From Sulfurovum sp. XGS-02 (GTDB lineage Bacteria > Campylobacterota > Campylobacteria > Campylobacterales > Sulfurovaceae): a stretch of 64,000 nt of DNA. This document shows positions 1,934 to 23,992 of the stretch, piece by piece; position 1 is the stretch's first letter; the number at the start of each line of letters is the position of its first letter. A program made the translations under genes and the position numbers. The stretch covers positions 2,108,001-2,172,000 of the forward strand of contig NZ_CP093312.1 in assembly GCF_023213175.1 (NCBI RefSeq), given 5' to 3'. Under the pieces are notes generated by a model, which was not told the origin of the DNA, made no database searches, and saw only the letters and a list, made by a program, of their open reading frames with translations.

Positions 1934-4708
1934 ATGACAAAGCCCAATGGCCCCGAACAATGCCAAACAAAAAGATGGATAAAGAGTCGCTTTGATACAC
2001 CAAAAGAGCTATCCAAAGACTTAAAAATCGGGGAGCTTATAGCCTATATTTTTGCAAGAGGGGATATATCATGTGCAAAAATATCAAGAAAAGGCAACCT
2101 GCTTGAAACGATTACATACATTGCCGACATTACATTGAAAGACTTCAACTCAAAAGATCTATTTTTTGCAGCCTCAAAAGCTTGTGAAGGTACAGATGAA
2201 AAGCGCAAGAAGAGCAGAGAACAATCAATAAGAAGTGGCATTAAAACCCTTTTTCTTGATCCTGCAATAAAGAAAAATCTTTTGACATACGCGTACCTAA
2301 GGAGAGACAGAGACGACATAGAAGATTTTCTTGCCTGGATCTCCCGAAAAAGCTCTAGGAATCCTGCGTTGGTGCTGACTGGCGAGACCACCCTTGAAGA
2401 ATATCTTGGTTGGCTCATCAAAAACAAAAAGTTGTCCATAAACAAGGTTCAGTCAATAGCTCTTTTTAAAGAAATAATTGAAAAGCTAATCAAGACAAAA
2501 ATAAAGGATATCAACTCGGAAATGATTCTGGATGCGCTTTCTACCGACAAGGAAGTGCCTGCTGACAAGTTCGGGAGCACTCGCTCCAACTTCAAAAAGG
2601 TAATCATGAAAGATGCGATTGATTTGGGCATTTGCAAGTTCGCAAGACCTCGCTCCGCTACACCCGACTTTAGAAACTGGATCGCACAGCAGACAGAAGA
2701 AGTCCCCAAAATATCAAGAGACATGACTTTTGGACAATTTGTTGTTTGGCTCAACGGTAAAAATAAATTAAACGAAGAGCTTCTTTTTCGACTCTCTAAG
2801 ACTTATGCCAAAAAAATTATAAGTGACACATTCGATATAAAATTATCAGAATTTCGTTGGAAAGACATACAGGTGGCAACCGAAACATACAAGAAAGAGA
2901 CTGGAACAAAGGCTATCTACAAAAACCTTTTTAAAAGAGCTTTTTTAGACCCTGCTGCCGAAATGGGTCTTCTAGTCAAAGAATACACTAATAGGTCGGA
3001 CACAAAATATATGATAGCTTGCCAATTAGAACTTTCTGAGCATATAAAAAAGGAGGATAGAACTATTGGATTCTATATCGCAAAAATTTATGGAGATTCA
3101 ATGCATCAGCAAACATCTTTTCTCGATGTATTTCTTGATCTTTGGGACACCAAGGCCTCCTGTCTTGTGCCAACAATCATCCCTGCCCTTTCTTCTCGCA
3201 AAGAAGAGCAAGCACTCAGAGCTATTTGCGACTCAATAACTGAGGATAAATTGCTACAGTTTGATTTTTATGATTATCAAGAGATGCAAAGAAACATGAC
3301 AACAGCAAACATAAGAGATGATATCTGGAAAATTAAAACAGGAGTAAGCACCTATAGTCGACTGGACTTCAGAGACATAGAGAGCAAAGCCCTAAAGATA
3401 TTGGCAAAAAAATATATAAAATGGAGAATAGGAAAACAATACAAGGGCCAGACGCGCACGCTTAGACAACTAAAGGAAGGGTTATTTTTCTTTTTAAGCT
3501 CAACAGACAGGACACTGACACAATTCACAAACAGGTCAAAAAAAGAGTGGCTCTTATGGCTCAAAGGAAGATTTTCGGACAGCAGAGGCAAACAAGTTTT
3601 TTACACCGGAAAGCAATTCCTGTCTTACTGTCTTGACATTCATCCCAAAAGCCTCTCCAAAAACCTTAACCTTTCTGGGCTAAACAATCCCTTTAAGGAG
3701 TCCGCTGCAAATCCCAAACAATATCCACAATGGGAGATAGATCAGATTATTAGTGGCCTTAAAAGGCACAACGATAGACAATTCTCTGACATCTTGACTC
3801 TTATTATGCTTACTGCCAAAAGACGGTCCGAAATATTAACACTAAAGAGGGATTGCCTTATTGACATAGCTGGAATCAAATACTTAAAATATACCGACAG
3901 TAAAAACAATGCTGAAAAACGGTCTCCTCTTCAAAGCTTTAGGATCGAGGGTGCCCCTAGCCTCTTCAAAAAAGATGTAGAGACGATTATCACGGAAATT
4001 ATTGAAAGACAAATAACACACAGCAAAGACAAGCTTCTCTTCTGCCACCCTGACGAAAGAGATCTTTTGTTGATAAGCGAAAGGGCGCAAAGGAACAACA
4101 GGGGCTATAAGTGCGGGGCGGTTACAGGCTCGGTTTACAAAACAAAGAAGGAGGCCTTTGTTCGTTTGCACAAAATTACATTCTCATTAGACGCCCACAA
4201 GTTCAGACACACACTTGCCTCTGCAATTATTCGCAGCGGAAAAGGAATCGATACGGCTGCCAGAACTTTAGGAAACCATCCTAAAACCACAGCCAAATAT
4301 TACGAGGCAAACGTCAGCAAAAAGGAAACAATGAGCCTTCCAGTCTCCCCGAAAGTAGATGCGCTAGAGGATGCAAAGGAGCTGGCAATGCTCAATGAAG
4401 TTCCCACCTACTGCAAAGGTGATGCCCCTAATGATGGCTCCGCAGTACCGGGAGGGCGATGCCTTGGGGGACAAGAAACAAAATTGTCCTGTAAGTTCTA
4501 TCAGCGTCTTTTTGGAAGTGGTGGCTGCCTTGGTTGCGGCAGTCTTGGAGTCGGAGAGGAAAACAGATTCTACTACGAGGACTTGAAATATGAATTGAAC
4601 AAGGAGCTAGACGAAGTTAAAGGAACACCTTTTGCCTCAGCCGTATCGTCAAAAATAAAGCTTGTAACGAATACACTAAAGACATTGGACAAAGGAGAGA
4701 AATTATAA
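1934..4708 (+). CDS. Very large tyrosine recombinase, second of three
   Basis: 924 residues, far longer than a typical integrase (300-450) and longer than Tn554 TnpB (630). The catalytic domain lies in the last third: Arg in TAKRRSEIL near residue 630, HKFRH near 754, LGNHPKTTAKYY near 785-792. After it comes a cysteine-containing tail (near 825-875) with a CLGC pair, perhaps zinc-binding. The N-terminal 600 residues contain several short segments that look alike, such as ...LDPAxxxxLL, possibly repeated core-binding modules. GGAGG precedes the ATG, which abuts the upstream stop codon. Confidence 0.9.
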   Translation: MTKPNGPEQCQTKRWIKSRFDTPKELSKDLKIGELIAYIFARGDISCAKISRKGNLLETITYIADITLKDFNSKDLFFAASKACEGTDEKRKKSREQSIRSGIKTLFLDPAIKKNLLTYAYLRRDRDDIEDFLAWISRKSSRNPALVLTGETTLEEYLGWLIKNKKLSINKVQSIALFKEIIEKLIKTKIKDINSEMILDALSTDKEVPADKFGSTRSNFKKVIMKDAIDLGICKFARPRSATPDFRNWIAQQTEEVPKISRDMTFGQFVVWLNGKNKLNEELLFRLSKTYAKKIISDTFDIKLSEFRWKDIQVATETYKKETGTKAIYKNLFKRAFLDPAAEMGLLVKEYTNRSDTKYMIACQLELSEHIKKEDRTIGFYIAKIYGDSMHQQTSFLDVFLDLWDTKASCLVPTIIPALSSRKEEQALRAICDSITEDKLLQFDFYDYQEMQRNMTTANIRDDIWKIKTGVSTYSRLDFRDIESKALKILAKKYIKWRIGKQYKGQTRTLRQLKEGLFFFLSSTDRTLTQFTNRSKKEWLLWLKGRFSDSRGKQVFYTGKQFLSYCLDIHPKSLSKNLNLSGLNNPFKESAANPKQYPQWEIDQIISGLKRHNDRQFSDILTLIMLTAKRRSEILTLKRDCLIDIAGIKYLKYTDSKNNAEKRSPLQSFRIEGAPSLFKKDVETIITEIIERQITHSKDKLLFCHPDERDLLLISERAQRNNRGYKCGAVTGSVYKTKKEAFVRLHKITFSLDAHKFRHTLASAIIRSGKGIDTAARTLGNHPKTTAKYYEANVSKKETMSLPVSPKVDALEDAKELAMLNEVPTYCKGDAPNDGSAVPGGRCLGGQETKLSCKFYQRLFGSGGCLGCGSLGVGEENRFYYEDLKYELNKELDEVKGTPFASAVSSKIKLVTNTLKTLDKGEKL

Positions 4709-6369
4709 TGGAGGCAACAAAGCTAACCCATAGTTTTTCGGCAAAAGAAAAACACGACAACCATCTTTACGATAACGTTGAGAGCCGAATAGCCGACGAA
4801 TTTGATGTGACCCACTTACTGCAAGACAAAACACTCACTAAAAAAACTATATATTTTGACAAATTTCCTGCTTGGGCTCGCAAAGCCGTTAAATACTATA
4901 TAGAGAATGAAATCCTGCTCAGGAACTCGACACCTTCAAGCGCAAATGATTTAACGATACATCTAAAAGGTGCCTTTGCTTATCTGCAAAAACATTACGA
5001 CACTAACACTCTCGCAGAAATACATGAGCAGCATTTTGATTCATACATAAAACATTTGGAGGACAGGGTGAGAGTCGAAGGGTCAATGAAGCTCAAAACC
5101 GCTTATTCTTACACTGTGGCCTTCATGAAGTTTCTTGAGTTTGTCGAAGATGAAGAAATTTCTAGTTATCCCTATCTTTCAAAGATTGAGCCCGCCAAGA
5201 TCTTTCCGTATGACAAGCCTGAAAAGTTCTTTGATGGAGACTCCCTCAAGAAGCATTTAGCTAATACACAAAAGAATAAGGATGAGCGCCCGCTAAGCTA
5301 CTCTCATCTGGTCGAAATACTTGAATGCATTTCGGACTACAACGATGTTTTATTTACAAACATAAGTATCATAATGGCCCACTCAGGACTCCGGGCTACA
5401 GAAGTTCTTCATTTGGAGACCGACTGCCTTGAGTATGTCACAGAAGAAGAAATGAGAATTTCAAAAAACAACAGAATCCCCATTGATGACAAAGAAGAAC
5501 TTTATTGGCTAAGCAACTACAAAACCATCAAAGGCAAACAGAAAAACTGGACCATAGGTACCCCTATTTTAGTTGGAAGCGAAGTAAAAAATGCCATAGA
5601 TACGCTTGTTGAACATTCAAGGGATTTGCTGTCCAAATATGAGCCTATGGAAACTAAAATTTCAAATAACATCTGCCTTCTTCTCTATCAAGGCAAGACT
5701 AAGATATTAACATATGCAGGCTACAGGAGCAAACTAAAGAGGTTTGTATCCGAAACAGGAGTCAAGCCTTTTACTGCTCATCAATTCAGGCACACCTACG
5801 CAAGTATGCTGTATGACTCAGGCGTACCAATCGAATTTATACGAAAATACCTAAATCACATACATGAAGACATGACAGACGGATACATCAAGAAAAACAA
5901 GCAAAAAACTATGGAAAAGTATGAGTCTTTTGCTTCTGCCAAAGTTTTTGCAGGAGGAGGAGAAAAAAAGGCATACGAACTTCAAAACAAACTAAAAGAG
6001 GCGCTAGAGCACCCAGAATTTGCTGCCATGATAATTGAAGAGAGACTTGAACTTTTAGAAATACTATCTGACTCGCTAGACATGGACATTCATGCTATGG
6101 ATCATGGAATGTGTCTTATTCCCAAAAATGCTACCTGCCCAAATAATTTTATTGAAATAAACTCCTGCTTTGAACAAAACTGTCAGCAGTTTGCTACCAC
6201 CGAAAACAGCATTCCTCATTTTACAAGATTGATTGAATATAAAGAGGGGTGGATTGAGGACTTTGAAAAAACAGGGCATTGGTCAGCCGCAGAAAGAGGC
6301 AGAAAGGGTCTTGAAAAGAACATCAATATACTAGAAAAGCTAAAAAAGGGAGAGTACTTTGTCAAATAA
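4708..6369 (+). CDS. Tyrosine recombinase, third of three
   Basis: A 553-residue integrase-family protein whose ATG overlaps the previous stop codon (TAATG). Catalytic residues: Arg in SGLRATEVL near residue 227, HQFRHT near 357, LNH near 380 and Tyr in DGYIKKN near 392. The C-terminal 90 residues carry four well-spaced cysteines (MCLIPKNATC, NSCFEQNC), as in the zinc-finger-like tails of Tn554-family recombinases. With its two neighbours it forms a three-recombinase cassette, the defining feature of RIT elements. Confidence 0.92.
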   Translation: MEATKLTHSFSAKEKHDNHLYDNVESRIADEFDVTHLLQDKTLTKKTIYFDKFPAWARKAVKYYIENEILLRNSTPSSANDLTIHLKGAFAYLQKHYDTNTLAEIHEQHFDSYIKHLEDRVRVEGSMKLKTAYSYTVAFMKFLEFVEDEEISSYPYLSKIEPAKIFPYDKPEKFFDGDSLKKHLANTQKNKDERPLSYSHLVEILECISDYNDVLFTNISIIMAHSGLRATEVLHLETDCLEYVTEEEMRISKNNRIPIDDKEELYWLSNYKTIKGKQKNWTIGTPILVGSEVKNAIDTLVEHSRDLLSKYEPMETKISNNICLLLYQGKTKILTYAGYRSKLKRFVSETGVKPFTAHQFRHTYASMLYDSGVPIEFIRKYLNHIHEDMTDGYIKKNKQKTMEKYESFASAKVFAGGGEKKAYELQNKLKEALEHPEFAAMIIEERLELLEILSDSLDMDIHAMDHGMCLIPKNATCPNNFIEINSCFEQNCQQFATTENSIPHFTRLIEYKEGWIEDFEKTGHWSAAERGRKGLEKNINILEKLKKGEYFVK

Positions 6370-6835
6370 AAGAAAAATCACAAAAGAGGATGTCAAGTCA
6401 GCCATAAGAAGACTCCGAAGAAGAAAAAGCTACACAAAAGACAGCGACATCACAATTACACTGATCGCCAAAGAAGTCGGTTGTAGCAGAAATGCCCTTT
6501 ACAGATCAGAGTTTAAAGATATTCTGCACCCATTTCACAAGATTAAAAAAAATACAGAAAAAGAAAAACACACAAAGGGATCGAACGAAGATCTCATGAG
6601 CATCATATCAAGCAAGGACGACGAGATTGCCAAATGCAAACAGGAACTTGGCAAGCTAAAAGACTGGACCATAGACAAAGAGAATATGTCTACAGAGATA
6701 GATAAGCTCATAGCCGAGGTTGAGAGACTTCAAGAGAAAGTCTCAGAGATGTACTCCCCAGAGGAAGTCAAAAAGCTTGCGTCAGACAATGCAAGACTCA
6801 GAGAGCTATTGCTGCGAAATGGAGTGTCTACCTGA
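6359..6835 (+). CDS. TnpC-like helix-turn-helix and coiled-coil protein
   Basis: 158 residues starting at a TTG that overlaps the end of the third recombinase; GGGAG precedes it. The N-terminus is basic and has a helix-turn-helix-like LIAKEVGCSRNALYR (about 37-51). Residues about 80-150 form a heptad-rich coiled coil. This layout matches TnpC of Tn554 and DUF6262-type partners, small accessory proteins that influence the efficiency and orientation of transposition. The role here is inferred from layout and position, not from clear sequence identity. Confidence 0.75.
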   Translation: MSNKRKITKEDVKSAIRRLRRRKSYTKDSDITITLIAKEVGCSRNALYRSEFKDILHPFHKIKKNTEKEKHTKGSNEDLMSIISSKDDEIAKCKQELGKLKDWTIDKENMSTEIDKLIAEVERLQEKVSEMYSPEEVKKLASDNARLRELLLRNGVST

Positions 6836-7233: not shown

Positions 7234-8997
7234 ATGAGTATAAGTTTGCAAACAAAGGATTTTGATGAAGTTTTATGGAAAAATGTGATTTCCGATGTAA
7301 AACATAAAGGATGTCAGTATTATTTTACACCCTTTTCTGATGCATTGAAGTCAGCACAAGATGAAGTAAGCATTCGTGTATTTACGACGCTGTCACAAAT
7401 CTCATCCTTTCACTTTAGACCAGATAATATTAGTGAACCATATGGTGCAATGATGATAATGGAAGGTTCACGCTCTGCAATACCAGATGATTTAAGCGAA
7501 GAACAACTAGAAGTACTTGCAAGCCTAATCGATTCATTTGACATTGATTTTAAGGCTCGTATTGCAGATATTGTATGGTTAAGAAAGAGAAATTTCCCAA
7601 TGGCATTAAAAGCCATAGAGTCATATATAGAAGCTTCGTATTATCTACTGGAATATGATGATACTTGGGTTCAAGCATTTGAATGTGTTAAGCGTGCATT
7701 TAAATTGTCCAGAAGTTTAGGAAAAGGTGCCAATGAACAATATGAGATGGTTATTGAAAATATACAAAAAGTTCTTATCAATCAAGGCCCTTTGGAAGTT
7801 CAATATTTTTCACTTAGACTAATGGAACTATTGAGGGAGACTCAGGTTGATAATTTTGTCGAGTTAGCTCAACTATCAGAAACAATTGCGAGTAATCATG
7901 AAGACCAGGGTCAGCAAAATGGTGCAAATAGTTATTGGCTTAATGCCGCATATTTACATGATAAAGTTGAGCAATATGAAGAAGCGAAAAACTGCAGAGT
8001 AAAAGCTGCTGAATGTTATGTAAAAATGGCTGAGTATAGTAGTAGTGCCATGGTTGGAGCAAATTTTTTACAAAAATCTATTGAAGCGTATAGGCGTATC
8101 GGTGGCCATCAATCACGAACGGATGAATTATATAACCAACTTCTTATGGTTCAAGAAAAAATGGCATCTGAATTACATAGAGTATCAACCGACATAGATG
8201 TTACAGAATTAGTTGAGCATGCGATATCATCTATTGAGGGCAAACCATTTAGTGAAGCCGTTCAAAACATATGTTTACTTTCTCATCCACAAAGTATTAA
8301 TTCCCTCAGAGAGTCTATAAACAAACTTGTAAAAACATCACCAATGCAATTTTTAGTATCTAGTCAAATTTTAGATTCAGAAGGCAAAACAGTAGCAACT
8401 TATCCAAATATGATGGATCCAAATGAAAAAGAAGCTGCGATGGAAGCACATATGATGAATCACACACAGTTTCAAAGAGTTGTGGCCACTATTGGTTCTA
8501 TTGAGCCTGCAAGAAAGCAGATACTATTAGAACATAATGTTTCAATATCTATGCTGATGCCTTTATTGACAAATAACCCTTTTGTTCCTGTTGGGCGTGA
8601 ATACATTGTTGCCAAAGGTCTTATCTCTGGATTTAATGGCGAATGGATAGAGGCTACAAATATTTTAATACCTCAATTTGAAGAATCAATTAGATATGTC
8701 TTAAAACAAAATGGTGAAGTTGTTTCGGGGATGGATGCCAATAACTTGCAAGATGTTCGTAGTTTAAATACAACGTTGCTCAATCCACTTATGGATGAAA
8801 TATTTGGAAAAGACCTATCCTTCGAATTAAAGGCATTGCTAATAAATCGTTATGGTGCAAACTTACGCAATAAAGTTTCCCATGGACTGATGCACGTAAG
8901 CGAATACTACACTTACAATACGATATACTTTTGGTGGATTTATTTACGATTAATTTGTTGGCCTATGGTGATGAAAAGGCAAAAAAATGCAAATTAA
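7234..8997 (+). CDS. DUF4209 family protein with HEPN-like RNxxxHG motif
   Basis: 587 residues. The C-terminal domain holds LRNKVSHGL near residue 546, the RNxxxHG motif that defines DUF4209; read as R-x4-H it also fits the active-site pattern of HEPN ribonucleases. The N-terminal two thirds are helical, with TPR-like segments (about 215-300). A short hydrophobic patch with tryptophans follows the motif. It stands alone with its own promoter next to the recombinases, a usual place for anti-phage or toxin cargo. RNase activity is inferred only from the motif. Confidence 0.75.
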   Translation: MSISLQTKDFDEVLWKNVISDVKHKGCQYYFTPFSDALKSAQDEVSIRVFTTLSQISSFHFRPDNISEPYGAMMIMEGSRSAIPDDLSEEQLEVLASLIDSFDIDFKARIADIVWLRKRNFPMALKAIESYIEASYYLLEYDDTWVQAFECVKRAFKLSRSLGKGANEQYEMVIENIQKVLINQGPLEVQYFSLRLMELLRETQVDNFVELAQLSETIASNHEDQGQQNGANSYWLNAAYLHDKVEQYEEAKNCRVKAAECYVKMAEYSSSAMVGANFLQKSIEAYRRIGGHQSRTDELYNQLLMVQEKMASELHRVSTDIDVTELVEHAISSIEGKPFSEAVQNICLLSHPQSINSLRESINKLVKTSPMQFLVSSQILDSEGKTVATYPNMMDPNEKEAAMEAHMMNHTQFQRVVATIGSIEPARKQILLEHNVSISMLMPLLTNNPFVPVGREYIVAKGLISGFNGEWIEATNILIPQFEESIRYVLKQNGEVVSGMDANNLQDVRSLNTTLLNPLMDEIFGKDLSFELKALLINRYGANLRNKVSHGLMHVSEYYTYNTIYFWWIYLRLICWPMVMKRQKNAN

Positions 8998-9636: not shown

Positions 9637-9849
9637 GTTTTTCCTTGTCCAGAGGTTTATTTGAAGCTCAAGTGTAACCAAAACAAGAGGAAAACCTTTA
9701 CACTATCACATGATAAAATTTTTTCTTGCATGAATTTTATTTTTTTGTGTACTTAATTCTCATTGTCCACTATATTGTCAGTACTAGCAAACAACACTAA
9801 AACCCAATGTGATAGACTAAAAATTTTAGGGAGAGAATAGCTAAACAAT

Positions 9850-9880
9850 AAACCTTATAAATTTATATATTTTATAAGGC
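9850..9880. repeat. CCTTATAA hairpin repeat, copy 2
   Basis: The core AACCTTATAA...TTATAAGG is the same as in copy 1 at 9059. It lies in non-coding DNA between the lipoprotein gene and the iteron array. Confidence 0.8.
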
Positions 9881-9954
9881 TTCTGGAAAAATCAAGTGTT
9901 TCATACTGCTTTGAATGTACTTGCAAACGATTAAAAATGACGAAAAAGATTAAT

Positions 9955-10424
9955 TTTCCCAAAATGAGGACACAAACTTCCCATTTTGAGGACTCATTAA
10001 AAAACCTGTTAATTAACCATAAAACCACTAAAAAGTAATAAAAATAAAGTAAATATCACTTAGAGTACATACAATTACAAGATATTTTTATTATATTAAG
10101 GACATATATTTACCATACTGAGGACTAGCATTTCCCAAAATGAGGACTTTTATATTAGATCATTAAACTCCCGTATTTATGGGTACTCATAGCTAATCAG
10201 CATTTTGAAATCCTATATTAGAACCTAGATAATTATGGAAAATTTACCATATTGAGGACTAGGATTTACCATTTAGAGGACACCCCAATTTTTGTCAAAA
10301 TTGCTTCCAAAATAACCAAATCTGAAGTCAATATGCTAGAAATTGCTATTAAAAATGGAAATTATTTACCATATGAAGGACATGATTTACCATTTGGAGG
10401 ACTCATATTTACCAAATTGAGGAC
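9955..10424 (+). repeat. Iteron-like direct repeats, possible plasmid origin
   Basis: Nine 17-bp direct repeats with consensus TTTACCATATTGAGGAC begin near 9955, 9977, 10109, 10131, 10243, 10265, 10365, 10386 and 10408. A weaker tenth lies near 10088. Neighbours within a group start 21-22 bases apart, two helical turns, so a protein would bind one DNA face. This is how plasmid iterons bound by Rep_3-type initiators look; a plasmid centromere is the alternative. No rep or parA gene is recognised nearby. The surrounding DNA (9637-10780) holds no convincing gene. Confidence 0.85.
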
Positions 10425-10730
10425 TATAACCCAATATCCTAATATTAAAAATTTTAAGTAAAGAATGTAGGCATTATCATACCTTTGTCAACTTTAACAA
10501 AATACTAAAAGCCCATGAGTGGAACTATAGATTAGTGCAAATGAAAAAGTGAATAAAAGCCATATAAATAACATTTCCTATAAAAAATACTAAAATTCAA
10601 CAAAGTATGCTATAAGTTTTGGGAAAGAGGATATGATTGAGTCGATAAAAGTTTTGGAATATCAGTGTGAGCGTCTACACATTGGCTCTATATTACCATC
10701 TATCTTTTCAAAAATATCATCATGTATTTT

Positions 10731-10797
10731 TGGTATAAGTAATATAATACCAAAAAGTATTATTTTGTATAAGATTCATTATGATACCATCTGGTAT
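10731..10797. promoter_or_regulatory. Two TGGTAT/ATACCA palindromes before the ATPase gene
   Basis: TGGTAT (10731-10736) pairs with ATACCA (10747-10752) across 10 bases. ATACCA-TC-TGGTAT (10784-10797) is a second site built from the same half-sites. Their position directly before the ATPase gene suggests an operator for a dimeric repressor that has not been identified. Confidence 0.55.
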
Positions 10798-10825
10798 TAT
10801 TAATATGATACTAAACGGAACTGCC

Positions 10826-11971
10826 ATGAGTATTCAACAAATCACAAATCCTTTTCTTTTTGACAAAGAGGTTTCCGGTACACATTTTTGTGGCCGCAGC
10901 AATGATATAAATCAACTACTAAATCATATCCGAAACAGTGTAGATGTCATTATGTTTGCCAAAAAAAGATTGGGGAAATCTTCATTGATCAAAGAGATAT
11001 TCGAAAACCATCTTGATGACGATATACTTCGTGCTCATATAGATATTTATCCTGTCTCAAGTACAAAAGAGCTGTATGAAAAACTCAAGTATGGCATTGC
11101 AGAAAGCCTAAAAGGAAAAGAAAGCAGTCTTGACAAACTTCAGCATAAAGCATCAGATCTCCAAAAATATTTTGCAAGAGCAAAAATATCCCTACAGCTA
11201 ACGCCTATGCCCGTATTTGAAATAGAACCAACATCAAGTCTATATCATGAAGCCATAATGGATATTCTTACTGGGTACTTTGATTACCTTGAGGATAACA
11301 AACTGTTTTCCATTATTGCTATTGATGAATTTCAGAAAATCGCTTCATTGAGTGAGAACGCAAAGATCGAAGAGGTATTAAGGACGGCAATAAGCAAAAG
11401 AAAGAACTGTTCTTTTATCTTTATTGGATCCGAGCGAAATAAACTCCTCTCAATGTTCAATTCTCCTAATAGACCTTTTTATAAACTAGGGATAGAACAT
11501 TCCCTGGGGCCCATAGAACAGGAAGTATTCTATAAATGGATTCTGAAGAACTTCAAAAAGGAAAATATCATTTTAGAGGAAGATGCTTTTAACTATCTCT
11601 ATAGTGAATCTTATGGAGAAACACGTTTTATACAGTGGATATCATACAAAATGTTCGAGCTAGAGAATGGGATGACGATCATAGATAAAGTAAAAATGAG
11701 AAAATATATTGATGAGACAATACTGAACGATACAGGCACAGCAATGTACTACAATACCTTTCCTATTGTCCAGCAAAACATACTGAAGATAATAGCCAAA
11801 GAAGACGGTAGTGATCTATATAGCAAATATGTGCTTGACAAGTATGATATCAAAAAAGGTTCTTTGCAAAGTGGTATTGAAAGGCTGGTTAATGCAGGGG
11901 AGATTTTTAAATCAGGAGATAAATACATTTTTGAGAATATTGAACTTGGAATGTGGTTAAAACTCGTATAG
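10826..11971 (+). CDS. P-loop ATPase, archaeal-type ATPase family
   Basis: 381 residues from MSIQQITNPFLF. The N-terminus has the family's NPF...GR opening (HFCGRSNDI). The Walker A is unusual: AKKRLGKSS, with Ala in place of the first Gly. Walker B is IIAIDEFQ near residue 165. The last 70 residues look like a winged helix (LYSKYVLDKYDIKKGSLQSGIERL). The frame is open to an ATG at 10781, but that codon lies inside a palindrome and the extension is unlike the family. Such ATPases often occur on islands, some in defence; the role here is unknown. Confidence 0.8.
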   Translation: MSIQQITNPFLFDKEVSGTHFCGRSNDINQLLNHIRNSVDVIMFAKKRLGKSSLIKEIFENHLDDDILRAHIDIYPVSSTKELYEKLKYGIAESLKGKESSLDKLQHKASDLQKYFARAKISLQLTPMPVFEIEPTSSLYHEAIMDILTGYFDYLEDNKLFSIIAIDEFQKIASLSENAKIEEVLRTAISKRKNCSFIFIGSERNKLLSMFNSPNRPFYKLGIEHSLGPIEQEVFYKWILKNFKKENIILEEDAFNYLYSESYGETRFIQWISYKMFELENGMTIIDKVKMRKYIDETILNDTGTAMYYNTFPIVQQNILKIIAKEDGSDLYSKYVLDKYDIKKGSLQSGIERLVNAGEIFKSGDKYIFENIELGMWLKLV

Positions 11972-12241: not shown

Positions 12242-12404
12242 TTGATCATCCCATCATTGACACTGTTTATTGCATTACCGTTACTGTTAAAAAAGGGAAT
12301 GGACCAGTATGAGTATATCGATCATACTAACCGTGATTGCATACTATCTGATATTTCTGATGCTTCAGAAAATCGGGATAAAAACTCTGATCATGGTTTT
12401 TTAA
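12242..12404 (+). pseudogene. Remnant of a membrane protein C-terminus, frameshifted
   Basis: One frame encodes LIIPSLTLFIALPLLLKKGM. A second frame, from an ATG at 12309, continues with MSISIILTVIAYYLIFLMLQ and stops at 12404. Joined by a frameshift near 12300 they make two membrane segments, as at the end of a permease. The reading is tentative, since a hydrophobic stretch can arise by chance in AT-rich DNA. It overlaps the end of the convergent efflux gene. Confidence 0.4.
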
Positions 12405-13326
12405 TTTCCACGGAAATGTGCACCAGTTCTTTGTGAATAGAAAGCTCTTTTTTAATATCGTCTATCTCAATATTATCATTTGAATTTAGTGTTAATATAC
12501 AGCCGAATTTCCCTTTTCCTACTCGCCAAACATGCAAATCCTCGATGAGAATATTTTGTTGTAAAGCGTTGATCACTTCTATTACTTCTTCTACAATCGG
12601 TGCATCCATTTCTGCATCTAGAAGAATCTTTCCCGACTGCTTTATCAGGCTGACAGCCCAGACGAACACCAGAACAGAACCGACAATCCCCATCATCGGG
12701 TCAAGCCAGGAGAAGCCATAGATCATCCCTCCTGTAAGTGCAATGATCGCCAAAACAGATGTAAGGGCATCGGCCAGTACATGCAGATATGCTGCCTTTA
12801 GATTCATATCATGGTGATGATGCCCGTGTTCATGAGTATGGTGATGATCGTGGCCATGATTGTGATGATGATCGTCTTTAAGTAGCCATGCACAGATAAG
12901 ATTAACGATAAGTCCTACGATGGCAATTGTAATGGCCTCTTTATAGGCTATGCTTACTGGATTGAAAATCCTTTCAACCGAGTGAAATACCATAAAAAAT
13001 GCAACGACTAAAAGCAGAATCGCACTGGTATATCCACCTAGAACCTCCATCTTATAGGTTCCGAAATTAAATCTGAAATCATTGGCATATTTGCTTGCCA
13101 TTACATAAGCCATGTACGCCATTCCAAGAGCAAGGACATGTGAACTCATATGCCAGCCATCGGCAAGCAGTGCCATGGAGTTATAGTAATATCCACCGAA
13201 TATTTCAACAATCATCGTCACAAAAGTCAGAAGTGTCGCATAAAGCGTATTCTTTTTTGCAATAGGGTTGGATGTGTCAAAATGGTGCGAGTGTGAAATT
13301 TCCTTTAATGATTCAATGGTATTCAT
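12391..13326 (-). CDS. dmeF: Cation diffusion facilitator, DmeF-like Co/Ni efflux
   Basis: 311 residues with about six membrane segments of the CDF family. The zinc/cobalt/nickel-type site DGWHMSSHV near residue 55 and HVLADALTS near 180 mark the two halves of the transport site. Between them lies a very histidine-rich cytoplasmic loop (about 150-172), typical of DmeF. A CsoR/RcnR-type regulator is divergent 70 bases away, as in dmeRF operons. It exports divalent metal across the inner membrane against protons; cobalt and nickel are inferred from the pairing. Confidence 0.88.
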   Translation of the reverse strand: MNTIESLKEISHSHHFDTSNPIAKKNTLYATLLTFVTMIVEIFGGYYYNSMALLADGWHMSSHVLALGMAYMAYVMASKYANDFRFNFGTYKMEVLGGYTSAILLLVVAFFMVFHSVERIFNPVSIAYKEAITIAIVGLIVNLICAWLLKDDHHHNHGHDHHHTHEHGHHHHDMNLKAAYLHVLADALTSVLAIIALTGGMIYGFSWLDPMMGIVGSVLVFVWAVSLIKQSGKILLDAEMDAPIVEEVIEVINALQQNILIEDLHVWRVGKGKFGCILTLNSNDNIEIDDIKKELSIHKELVHISVEIKKP

Positions 13327-13353
13327 TTAAATCCTCTTTAAAATATTTTTTGA

Positions 13354-13368
13354 TACTATACCCCAGTA
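13354..13368. promoter_or_regulatory. RcnR/DmeR-type operator
   Basis: The reverse strand reads TACT-GGGGTAT-AGTA: inverted TACT/AGTA arms around a G-tract. RcnR of E. coli recognises TACT-G6-N-AGTA, with the same seven-base centre. It lies between dmeF and dmeR, placed to control both divergent genes. Confidence 0.75.
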
Positions 13369-13396
13369 TACCTTATCAAATCATAAAGGCAATAAG

Positions 13397-13669
13397 ATGG
13401 CACATTTGATCGCAAACAAAGAGAAATTGATCTTAAGGATAAAAAAGATCAAAGGGCAATTAAACAGTATAGAAAAAGCTTTGGAAGCAGAAAATGACTG
13501 CTTTAAAGTGTTGCAGCAAATTAGTGCAAGTAGAGGTGCTATACAATCACTAATGAGTGAAGTTTTAGATGGTCACATCAAAGAGCATTTAGGTAGTCAT
13601 GTAAGCGATGAACAAAGAGAACAAGAAATTGAAAATCTGACAACACTACTCAAAACATATTTAAAGTAA
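13397..13669 (+). CDS. dmeR: Metal-sensing repressor of the CsoR/RcnR family
   Basis: A 90-residue all-helical repressor. MAHLIANKEKLILRIKKIKGQ is the family start, with His3 at the N-terminus. Other likely ligands are Cys36 in NDCFKVLQQ, His60 in DGHIKEHL and His64; this H-C-H-H set is that of RcnR/DmeR (Ni/Co) rather than copper-type CsoR. It is divergent from dmeF with a matching operator between them. It should release DNA when metal binds. dmeR and rcnR are both fitting names. Confidence 0.88.
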   Translation: MAHLIANKEKLILRIKKIKGQLNSIEKALEAENDCFKVLQQISASRGAIQSLMSEVLDGHIKEHLGSHVSDEQREQEIENLTTLLKTYLK

Positions 13670-13696
13670 TTTGTATAAAAAAAATAAGGATTATAC

Positions 13697-14068
13697 TTGA
13701 TTGAAAAACTGAAAAAATGGGCAAGCTATCTGAAACATTACCTGTATGCCCTATATTTGGCATATCATCACAAAGATGTTCCAATAGTTGCTAAAATAAT
13801 AGCGGTAATAGTGGTTTCATATGCCCTAAGCCCAATAGATTTGATTCCTGATTTTATCCCTATCATTGGATATTTGGACGATTTTATTTTATTGCCACTT
13901 GGAATAGTATTAGCCATAAAACTGATACCAGAGGAGATTTGGAGTGATTGTAAAAATGAAGCCCATCAATCAACTCTAAAATCTCTACCTCATTCTAAAA
14001 CAGCTGCCTTTGTTGTAATCATTATATGGATCATAATGGCAACTTTACTTTTTCGGTTGTTCTCCTAA
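13697..14068 (+). CDS. YkvA-like DUF1232 membrane protein
   Basis: 123 residues starting at TTG, with AAGGA six bases before it. The segment SYALSPIDLIPDFIPIIGYLDD (about 41-62) is the DUF1232/YkvA signature. A second hydrophobic helix lies at the C-terminus. The function of the family is unknown. It starts 27 bases after dmeR and may be co-transcribed, a frequent neighbourhood in metal islands. Confidence 0.85.
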   Translation: MIEKLKKWASYLKHYLYALYLAYHHKDVPIVAKIIAVIVVSYALSPIDLIPDFIPIIGYLDDFILLPLGIVLAIKLIPEEIWSDCKNEAHQSTLKSLPHSKTAAFVVIIIWIIMATLLFRLFS

Positions 14069-14284
14069 ACTTATAAATTTAATGATTTATCGTTTACGAA
14101 ACAAGAACCAAATAGCTGTATTCAGTATAATATTTATAAAAAATACTCAAATAATATCAGAGATCACAACTAAATTAAAGCTAATATCACACCAGCTATG
14201 AAGTTGGTTTTATCTATAAGGCCAAAGTCTCTGGACAGGTTAAATATTTTAAGCTAAACTACTTCAAATAAAAAGGCAAAAGCA

Positions 14285-14590
14285 GTGAAAAAGAAAATAG
14301 TACAGTTTTTATTGTTATTATCACTCTTCTTTGGCATTGCCCATGCTTCTGTCATAGCAATAGAAGATGAATGTCATCATGAAACTGCACATGAATATGT
14401 ACTAGAACAGTCTCAATCCACTGAATGCGGTGATTTGTGCGATATGCACCATTTCTTCCATGTTATAGCTATTCTCGATATGCAAAGTACTATATGGAAT
14501 ACAGACTATGTCCAAGAAGGCTTAATACATAAAAACAACCGTTACACTCCCCCAGTTCAAGAAACAATTATTAAACCCCCTATAGCATAA
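14285..14590 (+). CDS. Small secreted His/Cys protein before the efflux operon
   Basis: 101 residues from a GTG start, MKKKIVQFLLLLSLFFGIAHA, a signal peptide cleaved near residue 21. The short mature part has clustered possible metal ligands: ECHHETAHE, ECGDLCDMHHFFH. It lies 66 bases before the outer-membrane efflux gene. A periplasmic metal-binding or sensing role is inferred from composition and position. No named family is recognised. Confidence 0.72.
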   Translation: MKKKIVQFLLLLSLFFGIAHASVIAIEDECHHETAHEYVLEQSQSTECGDLCDMHHFFHVIAILDMQSTIWNTDYVQEGLIHKNNRYTPPVQETIIKPPIA

Positions 14591-14656
14591 TCTTATCTAC
14601 CACACCCTAGTTCTCTTTTGAACACACAATTTAAACATACCATTACAGGAATACCT

Positions 14657-15832
14657 ATGAAAAAAATCATAACGATTTTTTTGAGCTTATCTCTTGGTCT
14701 ATTTGCCATGAGTTACGAACAGTTCAAAAAATATATAGAGAAAAATGCAAAAGCATTACAAAGTCAAGCACTTTCACTACAAACAACACAAGAAGAAAAT
14801 AAAATTCTCTTGCGAACACAGAATCCTACACTCGAAATCGAAGCTTCTAGATTTAATCCTAATAGTATTGAGTCCCGTTTTGGATACTCTGTCATCGCTT
14901 CACAAACGGTACGTACAGGTAACTACTATGGAGGCTTGGAAGATCAAGCAACTGCCTCTACTTTGTTGCAACAAGCTTACGTTCATGATGGCAAAGCAGG
15001 TTATTTTAGAACACTAGAGAATTTGTATACAGAGTATGTCTACCAGAGTAAACTCTTAGCACTACTACAAGAGGAGTACACACTTTCAAATAAAATGACT
15101 GACATGGTGCATGAACGATATAAAAGTGGCTCTGAAAACAAAGTTGCCTATTTGCAAGCCAAGACAGACACTATGATGCTTAAAACGCAAATGTACACCA
15201 CTAAACAAGAGATGCATAAACTCTATTATCAACTCTTAGCTATTGCAGGACTTAGCATGAAAGTTTCTTTAGAAAAGCACTTTATCTATTCTGTATCCAC
15301 ACAAACAAGTTCTGTAGCTAAAACCAACCCAAAAGAACAGATACTTGAAGCAAAAAAGAAACTACTTGAAAGCAAAATTCGCATAAATGAAAGTAGTATC
15401 AATAGTTATAAAGTGTATGGCGGTATAGAAGATGAACCAGAACAATCTATCTTAAGAATAGGTGTTTCTATACCTTTACCAATCTGGAATGAAAAAAGTG
15501 AAGAAAAAGCCCTTGCAAAACTACAGATGCAACAACTTAGTTTGGATAAAGAGCAATTAAACATTGATCTGATCTCTCAAAAAGAGATGATTAAAGCTTC
15601 TATCAGAGAATTATCAGAGCAATACCGTTCACTCAAAAACCTTAAAAAAGAGCAGCAAATACTCAATGACATACTTCAAGAAGGATATAAAATCGCACAA
15701 GGATCTATTTTTGAGATGATGAGTGCAAAAAATAAACTCATACAAACACAAAAATCACTTTTGCAAACACACAAAACGATTAACAATCAAAAAATAGAAT
15801 TACGTTTCATACAAGGACAATACAATGACTAA
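14657..15832 (+). CDS. Outer-membrane efflux protein, TolC family (CzcC-like)
   Basis: 391 residues from the ATG at 14657, which has AGGA before it and a signal peptide (MKKIITIFLSLSLGLFAMS). A start 13 codons upstream would bury the signal. The helical repeats with long coiled segments (about 150-200, 310-380) and SIPLPIWNEKSEEKALAKL are typical of TolC-type channels. It overlaps the adaptor gene by 8 bases. It forms the outer-membrane duct of the tripartite metal pump below. Confidence 0.88.
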   Translation: MKKIITIFLSLSLGLFAMSYEQFKKYIEKNAKALQSQALSLQTTQEENKILLRTQNPTLEIEASRFNPNSIESRFGYSVIASQTVRTGNYYGGLEDQATASTLLQQAYVHDGKAGYFRTLENLYTEYVYQSKLLALLQEEYTLSNKMTDMVHERYKSGSENKVAYLQAKTDTMMLKTQMYTTKQEMHKLYYQLLAIAGLSMKVSLEKHFIYSVSTQTSSVAKTNPKEQILEAKKKLLESKIRINESSINSYKVYGGIEDEPEQSILRIGVSIPLPIWNEKSEEKALAKLQMQQLSLDKEQLNIDLISQKEMIKASIRELSEQYRSLKNLKKEQQILNDILQEGYKIAQGSIFEMMSAKNKLIQTQKSLLQTHKTINNQKIELRFIQGQYND

Positions 15833-16970
15833 ATATTTACTTTTACTTTTGCCACTTTTAAGTTTTGCCTCTGCTATTAAAGTAGAGCATGCACAGCTCA
15901 AGCCATTGGGGAAAATGATACAAACCAATGCGCAGATCACCCAACTCTCAGACCAAAAACAAGAGATAGTTTCACGTCTCTCTGGACACCTGGAAAGATA
16001 CTATGTCCAAGCAGGACAGCACGTTAAGAATGGAGAAAAAGTAGCACTCATAGAATCTATAGAACTCTCTAAAATGTCAGCAGCCTACTTGGCACTTATT
16101 CAGCAAAGCAAAGCTGCAGAGATACAAAAAAATGCAACGATGAAGCTGCATCAAAAAGGCTTAAGTTCACAAAATGACTTGAGCAATGCTATTATCTCTC
16201 TAGAAGAGATACGTTCAAAGAAAAATGCTTTGGCTTCACAGCTCAAATCTTTAGGTATTAACCCTACCACACTCAAAGAAGCAACTGATAAACTTACTAT
16301 CTATGCGCATGCTGATGGTGTAGTGGGTCAAATTACCGCACCACTTCACTCAAATGTAGATGCACAAACCCTACTCATGACACTGGTTAATCAAAGTGGC
16401 TACTACGCAGTAGCCTATCTTGGTGTCAATGACGCAATGAAAATCACAAAAGAGACCAAAGGATGGATAAATGTTGCAGAGAAACAATACCCTTCTACTT
16501 TTGTACAGCTACTGCCAAATATTGATCCTGAAACACAACGTGCCAAAGTGCTGTTCAGTATCGATCAAAGCCCATCTAATTTACTTTTAGGTGCTTTTAA
16601 TGAGATGGACATTGCACTGGCACCGTATACAAATACTGTGATGGTGAAAAAATCTGCTTTGAGTCTTTTTAAAGGTGAATGGGTTGTATTTGTAGAAAAA
16701 GAACATGAAGAAGCGGAACATCATGATGAAAAACCTGACCACGATCATGACAAAGAAGACAAAGAGCATGAAGAACATGAAGATAGCGATGACGAAGAGG
16801 GAGAAGAGCATGAAGAAGCACCCTATGAAGCAAAAGTCGTTGAGATTGTTGCGTATGCAGGAGATGATGTAGCCGTTAAAGGCCTCAAAGCAGATGAAGA
16901 GTATGTGAGTGAAGGTGTTTATTTTGTAAAATCAATGATACTCAAGTCTTCTCTTGGCGATGGCGATTAG
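15825..16970 (+). CDS. RND efflux periplasmic adaptor (CzcB-like)
   Basis: 381 residues with an N-terminal signal peptide (MTKYLLLLLPLLSFASA). A barrel-sandwich segment (GHLERYYVQAGQHVKNGEKV, about 48-67) and a coiled hairpin with LHQKGLSSQNDL are membrane-fusion-protein features. Near residues 288-330 is an extremely His/Asp/Glu-rich loop, likely to collect divalent metal in the periplasm. It links the CzcA-like pump to the TolC-like channel, and the three genes form one operon. Confidence 0.9.
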   Translation: MTKYLLLLLPLLSFASAIKVEHAQLKPLGKMIQTNAQITQLSDQKQEIVSRLSGHLERYYVQAGQHVKNGEKVALIESIELSKMSAAYLALIQQSKAAEIQKNATMKLHQKGLSSQNDLSNAIISLEEIRSKKNALASQLKSLGINPTTLKEATDKLTIYAHADGVVGQITAPLHSNVDAQTLLMTLVNQSGYYAVAYLGVNDAMKITKETKGWINVAEKQYPSTFVQLLPNIDPETQRAKVLFSIDQSPSNLLLGAFNEMDIALAPYTNTVMVKKSALSLFKGEWVVFVEKEHEEAEHHDEKPDHDHDKEDKEHEEHEDSDDEEGEEHEEAPYEAKVVEIVAYAGDDVAVKGLKADEEYVSEGVYFVKSMILKSSLGDGD

Positions 16971-16979
16971 GAGCATAAA

Positions 16980-19900
16980 ATGAAACGATTTTTTGAACTA
17001 CTTATACAGTATAAATTTCTCATGCTCGCACTTTTCATAGCCATCTCCGGATTTGGCTATAAAGCGTACCAAAATATACCCGTAGATGCCTTTCCGGACA
17101 TCACACCCAAACAAGTGGTCATCTATACCGAGAGTGCGGGTAACTCTGCTGAAGATATAGAAAAGCTCATTACTTACCCTATAGAAGCGGCTATGTCAGG
17201 ACTTCCTGGTGTGAAGATGATACTTTCCAACTCCATTTTTGGACTTTCCTATGTTTCTATTTTTTTTGAAGATGAGTATGATACTTACCTCTTGCGTCAA
17301 CTCGTCACTGAAAGACTCAACACAGTAGACATCCCAAAAGGCTGGGGAACGCCTGTGATGGGTCCAAATACCACTGGCCTTGGACAAGTACTCTGGTATG
17401 CACTCAAAGATGAGTCTAAAACATTTACACCAAGCCAACTTAGGCAAATGCATGAATATACGGTTACCCCACTACTTAAATCAGTAGATGGTGTAGAAGA
17501 AGTCATCTCGTGGGGTGGCTATGAAAAACAATATGAAGTACTCATAGACCCTAAACGCTTACAGAGTGTAGATGTCACCTATAATGAAGTTATAGAAGCC
17601 CTTGAAAAATCAAACCAATCTGTAGGAGGACAATACCTCGAATTTAACCGTGAACAGTACCTTATACGTGCTGCAGGTCTTTATAACACTCTTGATGACA
17701 TCAGAAATACTGTCATTCGTACCAAAGATGCTAAAACAGTCACCGTTCAAGATGTTGCCACCATCCAAGAAGGCAAAGCACCACGTTTTGGTGCTGTATC
17801 AGTAGATGGCAAAGAGAGAGTCTTTGGTATGGTACTGCAACGTTCAGGTACCAATGCAGCTAAAGTTGTTGAACTCATTAAAACAAAAATGCCATTGGTC
17901 AATGCTGCACTTCCCAAAGGTGTCACTCTGGATGTCATTTATGACAGAACAGAGATCACGCATAAAGCAGTAAGTACTATGAACTCTGCTCTCCTTACCG
18001 GGTCGATCTTGGTTGCTATAACACTCTTTCTATTTTTGTTTGAGTTGCGTTCTGCGTTTATTGTGATTGTCTCCTTACCTATCTCTTTGCTTATCGCATT
18101 TTTGATGATGCAGGAGTATGGTATCTCTGCAAATCTCATGTCTCTCTCGGGCCTTGCCATCGCCATAGGGATGATAGTCGATGGTACCATCGTTGTGGTG
18201 GAGAACTCCTTTAGGCTGCTTCACGACAACCCCAAGGCATCCAGAGCTGAAGTCATCGCAGAAGCTACTGCCGAAGTGGCAAAACCTGTGCTTTTTGCCC
18301 TGCTTATTATCGCTACTGTATTTATACCACTACTTAGCCTTGATGGTCTTGCAGGTAAACTCTATACACCTATGGCTCTAGACATTGTCTTTGTGATGCT
18401 TGGTTCACTCGCAGTTGCACTTCTGCTTGTGCCTGTACTTTCATTCATGATGCTCAAACAAGGAAAACATGCCAACAGTCCACTAATGCATGCTATTAAG
18501 TCATTTTATACCCCTATGTTAATCTTTTCACTCAAACATGCTAAAAAGTTAGTTACTGTAACCTTTTTCATCTTTATTGTTCTGGCAGGACTTTTGAGCC
18601 AGCAAGGTCGTGAGTTTATGCCTGAACTTAATGAAGAGACCATCATGTACAGAGTCATCGCCATCCCTGGAACAGCACTCACTCAAAGTGTAGAAAATGC
18701 GCAAGCCATTGAAAATTTCATACTTGAGACGTACCCTAAAGAAGTGCTATCGGTGCTTTCCATGATAGGGCGTAGTGAAAAAGGTGAGACTGCACAAGCC
18801 AACTACATGGAAGTACTGCTCACACTCAATCCAGAGTTCACAGAGATACCAAAGCTCGATAAAGAGATGACAAAAAAACTAAAAGAAAAGTTTAACTTCT
18901 TACAATTCATTTCTACGCAGCCTATCGCTATGCGTATCGAAGAGTTACTTGAAGGTGTAAGTGCAGAACTTGCTGTTAAAATCTACGGGGAAGACCAAAA
19001 AATCATGTCGCAAATAGCTGGTGAAATTTCTGGCATTCTTAGAGGCATAGAAGGGCTTGATCATGCTGAAGTAGAAACACAATTGGGACAGGCGCAAATC
19101 AACATCAAACCAAACTACTTAGCTCTTTCACGTTATGGGTTGAGTATAGAAGATGTGATGCAAGTGATTCGTTATGGTATCGGTGAAGAAGCTGTGACAC
19201 AAAAAATAGAAGGCGTAAAACGTTTTGGTATCGTAGCTAAACTCAAAGATGCAAAACAAGATATCAACACACTGAAATCACTTGTTTTACGTTCAGACTC
19301 CGGAAAAGTTGTGACACTTGAAGAAGTATGCGACATAACTGTTATACAGGGTCCTGCTTTCATTAAAAGAGAAGACTTGAGCCGTTATATGGTACTTTCA
19401 CTCGAAGTAGAAGATCGTGACATTGCTACTTTCGTAGAAGAAGCAGATGCCAAGATAAAAGCCAATGTAAATATACCAGACGGCTACTACATCAAATGGG
19501 TGGGTGACTTTAAAAATATGCAAGAAGCCACAGCAACCTTGGCGATGATTATTCCTATTACTTTACTGCTCATTATGCTTTTGCTCTACACCGCATTTAA
19601 CTCGTTTAAAAAAGCTTTTCTAATCTTGCTTGGTGTGCCTCTAGGTCTCATGGGTGGGATAGTCGGACTTTTACTCTCTGGTGAGTATCTTTCGGTCTCT
19701 GCTATTGTTGGATTCATTGCTATTTTTGCCATCGCTATACTCAACGGCATTGTTCTTGTATCTTTTATAGATGAGTTGCGCAAAAAATTCCCCACAGTCA
19801 AAACCATAGACTTGGTAAAAGATGCCACGCTCTTACGGCTCAGACCTGTACTTATGACAGCCTTTACCACACTCTTTGGGATATTACCTCTACTTTATGC

Positions 19901-20030
19901 TACAGGTGTAGGCTCAGAGATACAGTATCCACTTTCTGTAGCTGTAACAGGAGGGATTATCTCTTCTACGATACTCACTCTTTTAGTTTTACCGGGCTTG
20001 TATGTGTTGTTCTTTAAAAAAGAGGAATAA
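16980..20030 (+). CDS. Heavy-metal RND transporter (CzcA/CusA family)
   Basis: 1016 residues, normal for heavy-metal RND pumps, with 12 predicted membrane segments and two large periplasmic loops. IPVDAFPDITPKQV near residue 33 is the family's opening motif. The fourth membrane segment has AIGMIVDGTIVVVEN near 394-410, with the proton-relay Asp. The metal cannot be fixed with confidence; the Asp-Gly pair resembles the Zn/Co/Cd group more than the Cu/Ag group. It uses the proton gradient to send metal out through the CzcBC-like partners. Confidence 0.92.
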   Translation: MKRFFELLIQYKFLMLALFIAISGFGYKAYQNIPVDAFPDITPKQVVIYTESAGNSAEDIEKLITYPIEAAMSGLPGVKMILSNSIFGLSYVSIFFEDEYDTYLLRQLVTERLNTVDIPKGWGTPVMGPNTTGLGQVLWYALKDESKTFTPSQLRQMHEYTVTPLLKSVDGVEEVISWGGYEKQYEVLIDPKRLQSVDVTYNEVIEALEKSNQSVGGQYLEFNREQYLIRAAGLYNTLDDIRNTVIRTKDAKTVTVQDVATIQEGKAPRFGAVSVDGKERVFGMVLQRSGTNAAKVVELIKTKMPLVNAALPKGVTLDVIYDRTEITHKAVSTMNSALLTGSILVAITLFLFLFELRSAFIVIVSLPISLLIAFLMMQEYGISANLMSLSGLAIAIGMIVDGTIVVVENSFRLLHDNPKASRAEVIAEATAEVAKPVLFALLIIATVFIPLLSLDGLAGKLYTPMALDIVFVMLGSLAVALLLVPVLSFMMLKQGKHANSPLMHAIKSFYTPMLIFSLKHAKKLVTVTFFIFIVLAGLLSQQGREFMPELNEETIMYRVIAIPGTALTQSVENAQAIENFILETYPKEVLSVLSMIGRSEKGETAQANYMEVLLTLNPEFTEIPKLDKEMTKKLKEKFNFLQFISTQPIAMRIEELLEGVSAELAVKIYGEDQKIMSQIAGEISGILRGIEGLDHAEVETQLGQAQINIKPNYLALSRYGLSIEDVMQVIRYGIGEEAVTQKIEGVKRFGIVAKLKDAKQDINTLKSLVLRSDSGKVVTLEEVCDITVIQGPAFIKREDLSRYMVLSLEVEDRDIATFVEEADAKIKANVNIPDGYYIKWVGDFKNMQEATATLAMIIPITLLLIMLLLYTAFNSFKKAFLILLGVPLGLMGGIVGLLLSGEYLSVSAIVGFIAIFAIAILNGIVLVSFIDELRKKFPTVKTIDLVKDATLLRLRPVLMTAFTTLFGILPLLYATGVGSEIQYPLSVAVTGGIISSTILTLLVLPGLYVLFFKKEE

Positions 20031-20398: not shown

Positions 20399-20459
20399 TC
20401 TGAACGGTCTCAAAAGCCACCTGCGGGTTTTTGATTGGTCTCCTTTGATTTGTTATGTG
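20399..20459 (-). repeat. attC-like site A, after the abiV cassette
   Basis: Read on the minus strand it begins CACATAACAAATCAAAGGAG, shares AATCAAAAACC with site C, and ends near ACCGTTCAG. A weak internal hairpin pairs CAAAA with TTTTG. Its right boundary lacks the GTTAT seen in site C, as expected for the last site of an array or a decayed one. Confidence 0.7.
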
Positions 20460-21034
20460 TTTTTAATTTGTTCGAACAGGGCATCGGTTATGTCGTCCAT
20501 TTCATATGTGTGATTGGTGACTCCAACTAGCGCATCATCAAATGCTTCAATTGCAAATAAGACTAAAGACCTCGCAAGCTTCTTGTCTACTTTCTCAGCT
20601 GGTATAGTTAAGCTACCGTTTTCTCTTTGGAAATACAGTGCACTTTCTCTAGTTTGGACAAAACCTGAATTGTGTGCCAGATTCATTATGCGCTGAAGCT
20701 CTGGACTTCCAAGAGCTTCGTTTAAACGTTGCGCCACTGTAACAGTCGGCAATGCAGCCATTTGATGCTTTGTTCTATGATCTCGGAATATATTACGCCC
20801 ATTTTTTTCTGGATGTTTTCCATCAGTAAAGGAACCAATGTGTGCCTTTGCAATTTCTTCACATGCACTTATACTCAAAAATGCAGAAGTTGGATAGCTA
20901 CCATTCATGTATAAAGTACATGCATCTTGAATAAGCTGAACTATATGGTCAACTGCTTTGTTAAAATCATCAACACTTTGAATAAGATTTTCATCCGTTC
21001 TTACCATGCTGCTGATAAGTTCAAATACTTCCAT
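20453..21034 (-). CDS. abiV: AbiV family abortive-infection protein
   Basis: 193 helical residues. SAFLSISACEEIAKAHIGSF near residue 50 and the following FRDHRTKHQ match the HEPN_AbiV family. The lactococcal member stops phage growth by blocking translation after infection. The stop codon lies within attC-like site A, as in a typical integron cassette, and site B lies just upstream. No promoter was found between them, so it probably depends on read-through along the array. The family is clear; activity in this host is inferred. Confidence 0.85.
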   Translation of the reverse strand: MEVFELISSMVRTDENLIQSVDDFNKAVDHIVQLIQDACTLYMNGSYPTSAFLSISACEEIAKAHIGSFTDGKHPEKNGRNIFRDHRTKHQMAALPTVTVAQRLNEALGSPELQRIMNLAHNSGFVQTRESALYFQRENGSLTIPAEKVDKKLARSLVLFAIEAFDDALVGVTNHTYEMDDITDALFEQIKNT

Positions 21035-23924: not shown

Positions 23925-23953
23925 GTATTACACTTTAATACTAGATAAAGAAT
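23925..23953 (-). repeat. Right end of the mobile element
   Basis: ATACTAGATAA (23938-23948) is the inverted match of the left-end TTATCTAGTAT. Inward lies the palindrome GTATTA-CACTT-TAATAC (23925-23941). Outward come AGAAT and then GGTACTTTTTTTGAAG, where MutS7 coding resumes. Confidence 0.75.
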
Positions 23954-23992
23954 GGTACTTTTTTTGAAGTCTATGAGGTCAATAACGATGAG

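Follow-up and report, generated by a model that had tools for sequence, protein, structure and literature searches.

Plasmid incompatibility is usually regarded as a clash between two replicons. Two described systems come closest to the locus presented here, in which the sites of a plasmid protein are carried by a chromosomal element. The first is the anti-F cassette with FIB iterons, which, with rep removed or broken, displaced F'prolac while itself carried on a low-copy vector, and in which deletion of rep ended the need for a raised copy number (PMC11983097). The second is SGI1, whose parS mimics bind the ParB of a plasmid, stabilising SGI1 and destabilising the plasmid in a dose-dependent manner (PMC10954446). 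Like the anti-FIB locus of that cassette, the array described here would set Rep-free iterons against a plasmid replicon, and as with SGI1, the chromosomal island has just the cis sites for a maintenance protein of a plasmid, a protein that in the case of SGI1 acts in trans. By analogy, we regard these two systems as the nearest precedents. They differ from the present case in that the anti-FIB cassettes are artificial and sit on plasmid vectors (PMC11983097), in that the SGI1 sites are partition sites tested in the laboratory (PMC10954446) whereas those described here are iterons known from sequence, and in that SGI1, unlike the present island, has a rep and an iteron origin of its own for replication (PMC7433901). 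Parasitism of cis sites, or incompatibility through them, is known already; for natural arrays of Rep-free iterons, whether on islands or on filamentous prophages, we found no report in the open-access literature.

The integrating elements known as GInts and SEs have a layout in which three tyrosine recombinase genes are accompanied by a fourth, small gene (PMC5385486, PMC10214605), and the present island appears to be of this general kind. As in GInt, SE and Tn554-like elements, the recombinase trio and the small fourth gene lie at one end with the cargo behind, and the insertion is in a gene; short terminal inverted repeats are common to the island, SE and Tn554. The likeness to GInt, SE and Tn554 is one of layout, and the SE paper never mentions the word iteron. 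In the window, by which we mean the whole 64-kb stretch of DNA that was analysed, tblastn places residues 1–44 of a relative's MutS at 483-614 and residues 46 onward from 23954 (96% identical), and since the alignment resumes at 23954, all of the DNA between is a single 23.3-kb insertion. The interrupted gene, which from its sequence we take to be mutS, is split at its conserved GTFFE motif, and the part beyond the island is still an open frame, so that the insertion appears to be recent; unless the island excises, full MutS function may be lacking in the strain. The features of the island and its flanks are as follows.

483-614, + strand: 5' fragment of mutS
617-23953, no strand assigned: tyrosine-recombinase-trio island in mutS at Ile45/Gly46 (LMEI/GTFFE), 23.3 kb, ends approximate to a few bases
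619-629, + strand: left terminal inverted repeat, 11 bp, TTATCTAGTAT
824-1933, + strand: tyrosine recombinase 1, 369 aa (Pfam Phage_integrase, E 5.7e-24)
1934-4708, + strand: tyrosine recombinase 2, large, 924 aa (Phage_integrase, E 6.9e-9)
4708-6369, + strand: tyrosine recombinase 3, 553 aa (Phage_integrase, E 4.8e-15)
6359-6835, + strand: small fourth protein, 158 aa, at the TnpC/GinD place (HTH_7 weak, below cut-off; role suggested by the GInt/SE layout)
7234-8997, + strand: candidate defence protein PDC-S39, DUF7380 and DUF4209 (PADLOC E 3.9e-169; Pfam)
9682-10780, no strand assigned: noncoding AT-rich stretch with the array, 1.1 kb, 28% GC
10781-11971, + strand: AAA/ATPase_2-type ATPase, 3' of the array (ATPase_2 E 9.6e-8, just under the Pfam cut-off; AAA_22 over cut-off)
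20453-21034, - strand: AbiV abortive-infection protein (PADLOC E 1.9e-71; NCBIfam TIGR04498 over cut-off)
23938-23948, - strand: right terminal inverted repeat, ATACTAGATAA on the + strand
23954-26764, + strand: rest of mutS, an open frame of 923 aa that starts at an internal ATG (23993)

The ATPase matches no PADLOC family. From our reading of the ORFs, positions 12391-20030 presumably encode a CDF metal transporter together with an outer-membrane-factor, adaptor and RND pump set, adjacent to the defence genes. The iterons form four groups.

9955-9993, + strand: iteron group 1, two copies, starting at 9955 and 9977
10087-10147, + strand: iteron group 2, three copies, starting at 10087 (degenerate), 10109 and 10131
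10243-10281, + strand: iteron group 3, two copies, starting at 10243 and 10265
10365-10424, + strand: iteron group 4, three copies, starting at 10365, 10386 and 10408

These ten 17-bp copies at 9955-10424 all lie on the + strand, and the window holds no other match within three mismatches of TTTACCATATTGAGGAC; dinucleotide shuffles gave a mean of 0.25 matches and a maximum of 2. A first-pass annotation of this DNA had placed the array correctly but counted nine repeats where there are ten, one of them degenerate. Its steps of 21-22 bp and groups of two or three are what we see (2, 3, 2, 3), the copies within a group being short direct repeats about two helical turns apart, and the separation of about 120-155 bases that it gave fits the distances from group start to group start (132, 156 and 122 bp) but not the actual gaps, which are 93, 95 and 83 bp. 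The consensus that it quoted is exact in one copy only, whereas YTTMCCANNNNGAGGAC fits eight of the ten; a ninth (10365) departs from it only through AAGGAC, and the copy at 10087 is the degenerate TTTATTATATTAAGGAC. All eight core positions are kept in eight of the ten copies. No Rfam RNA matches positions 1-26000 of the window.

The closest match to the array itself is among Rep_3 theta plasmids, namely pSDCE1, pSDIE1 and others of Sulfurospirillum and its relatives, whose iterons have the 17-bp motif in common with it, lie at steps of 20-23 bp and occupy AT-rich noncoding DNA. Unlike these plasmids, the island has no rep, parA or parB, and most of the window copies have A at position 4 (TTTACCA). 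The sequence comparisons give good support to the view that plasmids of a Campylobacterota Rep_3 (PF01051) family have this motif as their iteron, the identification being strong because the motif lies beside Rep_3 genes in plasmids and contigs and because of the result of a plasmid-only weight matrix. Specifically, a matrix built from 69 plasmid copies, with none from the window, finds seven sites of at least 14 bits (14.6-28.8) in the 1.1-kb noncoding stretch, against none in 500 shuffles, and in the remainder of the 64-kb window no site reaches that threshold. In plasmids, in plasmid contigs and in one viral contig, the Rep next to the motif belongs to a single subfamily (62-99% identical). 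Two adjacent motif copies, sought in about 85,000 species genomes, were found in eight stretches, and in three of these (contigs L014, L017 and L018) arrays flank a gene for a protein of 330-340 aa, adjoined in L014 and L017 by ParA/ParB genes; two of the three proteins match PF01051 (Rep3_N) with E 3.5e-10 and 7.5e-10, and with these two the third shares 70-76% identity. A tblastn search into plasmids showed the motif on both sides of the annotated replication initiation gene in pSDCE1 and pSDIE1 of Sulfurospirillum diekertiae. The first-pass annotation had named a lack of such repeats near any rep gene as the outcome that would speak against it; the search of Campylobacterota plasmids gave the opposite, with the repeats located at Rep_3 genes.

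Within the order, tandem copies are present in 6 of 398 genomes, namely our own and five with an array at a Rep of the same subfamily, and an exact-motif scan confines multi-copy clusters to our own genome, Rep_3 plasmid contigs and the three filamentous prophages described below. Among the 78 genomes of the genus, one (G430) has such a plasmid contig, the iterons of which include CTTCCCATATTGAGGAC, the exact 17-mer of two copies on a second island of our own genome. A host-wide regulatory motif is ruled out, as most genomes have no copy at all. Single matches in L089-L091 are in or beside ordinary coding genes and are taken as chance, and the cyanophage matches in L094-L096 are a coding repeat. 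The Rep subfamily matches none of the solved structures by sequence, and a BLASTN search of the array against plasmids returned nothing meaningful, iterons being too short for such a search to be informative.

In contrast to plasmid iterons, the window array has no cognate rep in cis. In the window and the second island no homologue or remnant of Rep_3 or ParA/B was found, and no Rep_3 gene was found in the whole of our own genome (a one-contig assembly; a plasmid outside it is possible). The main reading of the first-pass annotation, iterons of a captured plasmid origin with no Rep nearby, on which a plasmid protein acts or which are a relic, is borne out to the extent that the motif flanks Rep_3 elsewhere and Rep_3 is absent here. 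Its suggestion of a centromere finds no support, par genes not being found in the islands.

Rep-free copies of the motif recur in elements unrelated to the window island. In our own genome a second cluster, at 660,952-661,155 and with CTTCCCATATTGAGGAC in both orientations, lies near the right end, at a distance of some 180-380 bp, of an island of 17.7 kb in a tlpA-like gene. Full copies number only three in this cluster, and their orientation is mixed. The second island has a tyrosine recombinase set of its own: of three large proteins, two match Phage_integrase, and the one of 709 aa matches no Pfam family. Like the window island, it carries defence genes, among them an OLD/GajA-like ATPase (PADLOC search) and, as we read the ORFs, presumably type I restriction genes. 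Three prophages of the genus (L085, L086 and L087), filamentous by their matches to a Zot-type ATPase, a secretin, a GPA-type replication protein and an integrase, have three sites each, one within the replication gene and two just 3' of it, and no Rep_3 was found in their genomes. In two relatives with a replication protein 71% identical, all three sites are missing at the homologous places. The three separate sites are thus present or absent together, a pattern which suggests that binding of one shared protein has been selected for.

Based on these comparisons, we now put forward a hypothetical mechanism, to which we give somewhat less than an even chance, in which the array consists of Rep-free iterons that capture the Rep_3 initiator of a rival plasmid and so act as an incompatibility determinant in trans. 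What the motif is, that it accompanies Rep_3, that Rep is missing here and that unrelated integrating elements also have rep-free copies are computed observations; that Rep binds the island copies, and that plasmid exclusion is the effect under selection, we infer. When a plasmid or phage-plasmid of the Rep_3 family enters the cell, its Rep monomers would bind the island iterons, and titration of Rep would reduce or block replication of the plasmid, as would handcuffing of its Rep-bound origins to the array in the chromosome. The scattered and inverted copies of the prophages and the second island could likewise sequester or pair Rep, and capture of Rep is the simplest account of all cases because such copies are poor origins and yet able to sequester it. 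The recurrence of rep-free copies on the second island and the three filamentous prophages, the lack of any detectable protein common to these carriers, the defence genes on both islands and, by analogy, the laboratory precedents of the FIB iteron cassette and the SGI1 parS mimics are all consistent with this mechanism. Its main weakness is dose, on which the incompatibility of the SGI1 sites depends (PMC10954446): one array in the chromosome may be too little to serve as a decoy. Moreover, TTTACCA, present in six of the ten copies in the window, is absent as a variant from the plasmids that were read, direct repeats in a 2+3+2+3 order in AT-rich DNA also resemble an origin, and conservation is not illustrated by any array-bearing relative of the window island, none being found; one distant relative (31% identical recombinase) is without a comparable array.

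A wider and more tentative proposal is that Rep-free iterons on defence islands and filamentous prophages of Campylobacterota are independent decoys against plasmids or phage-plasmids, a module of immunity that consists of DNA sites alone. The comparisons suggest that chromosomal elements may use incompatibility as a weapon or tap a plasmid's Rep for themselves. If true, this would constitute a protein-free class of defence or parasitism that is invisible to gene-based defence catalogues and annotation tools.

Judged by the window only, the array might also be a relic or a borrowed origin. A relic, to which we assign a limited probability, would have arisen when the island absorbed or fused with a Rep_3 plasmid and rep and parAB were then deleted, an active plasmid origin being harmful in a chromosome, leaving iterons without function. 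This requires no function, and it agrees with the intact iteron plasmids of the same genus and with the AT-rich, origin-like setting. However, traces of Rep, ParA and ParB are absent from both islands, the core positions are intact in eight of the ten copies, the same events must have occurred twice on unrelated islands of one genome, and it is left unexplained why prophages with a replication gene of their own have three sites in coding DNA that vary together.

Less probable, and in our view unlikely, is that the Rep of a resident plasmid replicates or stabilises the excised circle of the island in the manner of a satellite. An AT-rich stretch that holds ten direct iterons in steps of 21-22 bp is origin-like, circle formation is described for islands of this broad type (PMC5385486, PMC10214605), and SGI1 relies on an iteron origin once it has excised (PMC7433901), but SGI1 has its own rep, and the second island, whose three full copies differ in orientation, and the prophages, with three scattered sites, would make poor origins. 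No DnaA box was found in the window within one mismatch, although the plasmids likewise have none beyond overlaps with their iterons, all of their one-mismatch matches (TTATCCTCA) being iteron parts, so that this lack does not decide the matter. It is very improbable that the array binds, as the first-pass annotation had allowed, a protein of the island itself, and so would serve a recombinase, the TnpC-like protein or the ATPase as recombinase arm sites or an operator: the second array is indeed near an island end and the window array is upstream of the ATPase gene, but the motif lies beside Rep_3 in plasmids, the window array is internal to its island, with about 9 kb on one side of it and 13 kb on the other, and since neither BLAST nor phmmer detects a protein common to the two islands and the prophages, an own protein is unlikely as the common ligand.

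Several further occurrences were noted. The viral contig mentioned above (L093, IMGVR_UViG_3300017598_000697), with a Rep_3 gene and iterons beside apparent virion genes, is probably a phage-plasmid of the Rep_3 family. A tandem pair of the motif lies at the end of a 4-kb contig without a rep gene (L088:164-200, genome G406), and a Prevotellaceae genome (contigs L016, L019, L020 and L021) has tandem pairs and triples of TTTTCCATAGRGAGGAC at 22-bp steps, a similar-looking Bacteroidota repeat. On the second island, L009:11004-11140 also contains half-copies, TTTACCAAAAGTGG, in both orientations and in a near-symmetric arrangement. The tlpA-like thioredoxin gene that this island splits and a complete paralogue of it aboard the island, possibly a replacement copy, are found at L009:780-1304 and 11339-11623 and at L013:3419-3610.
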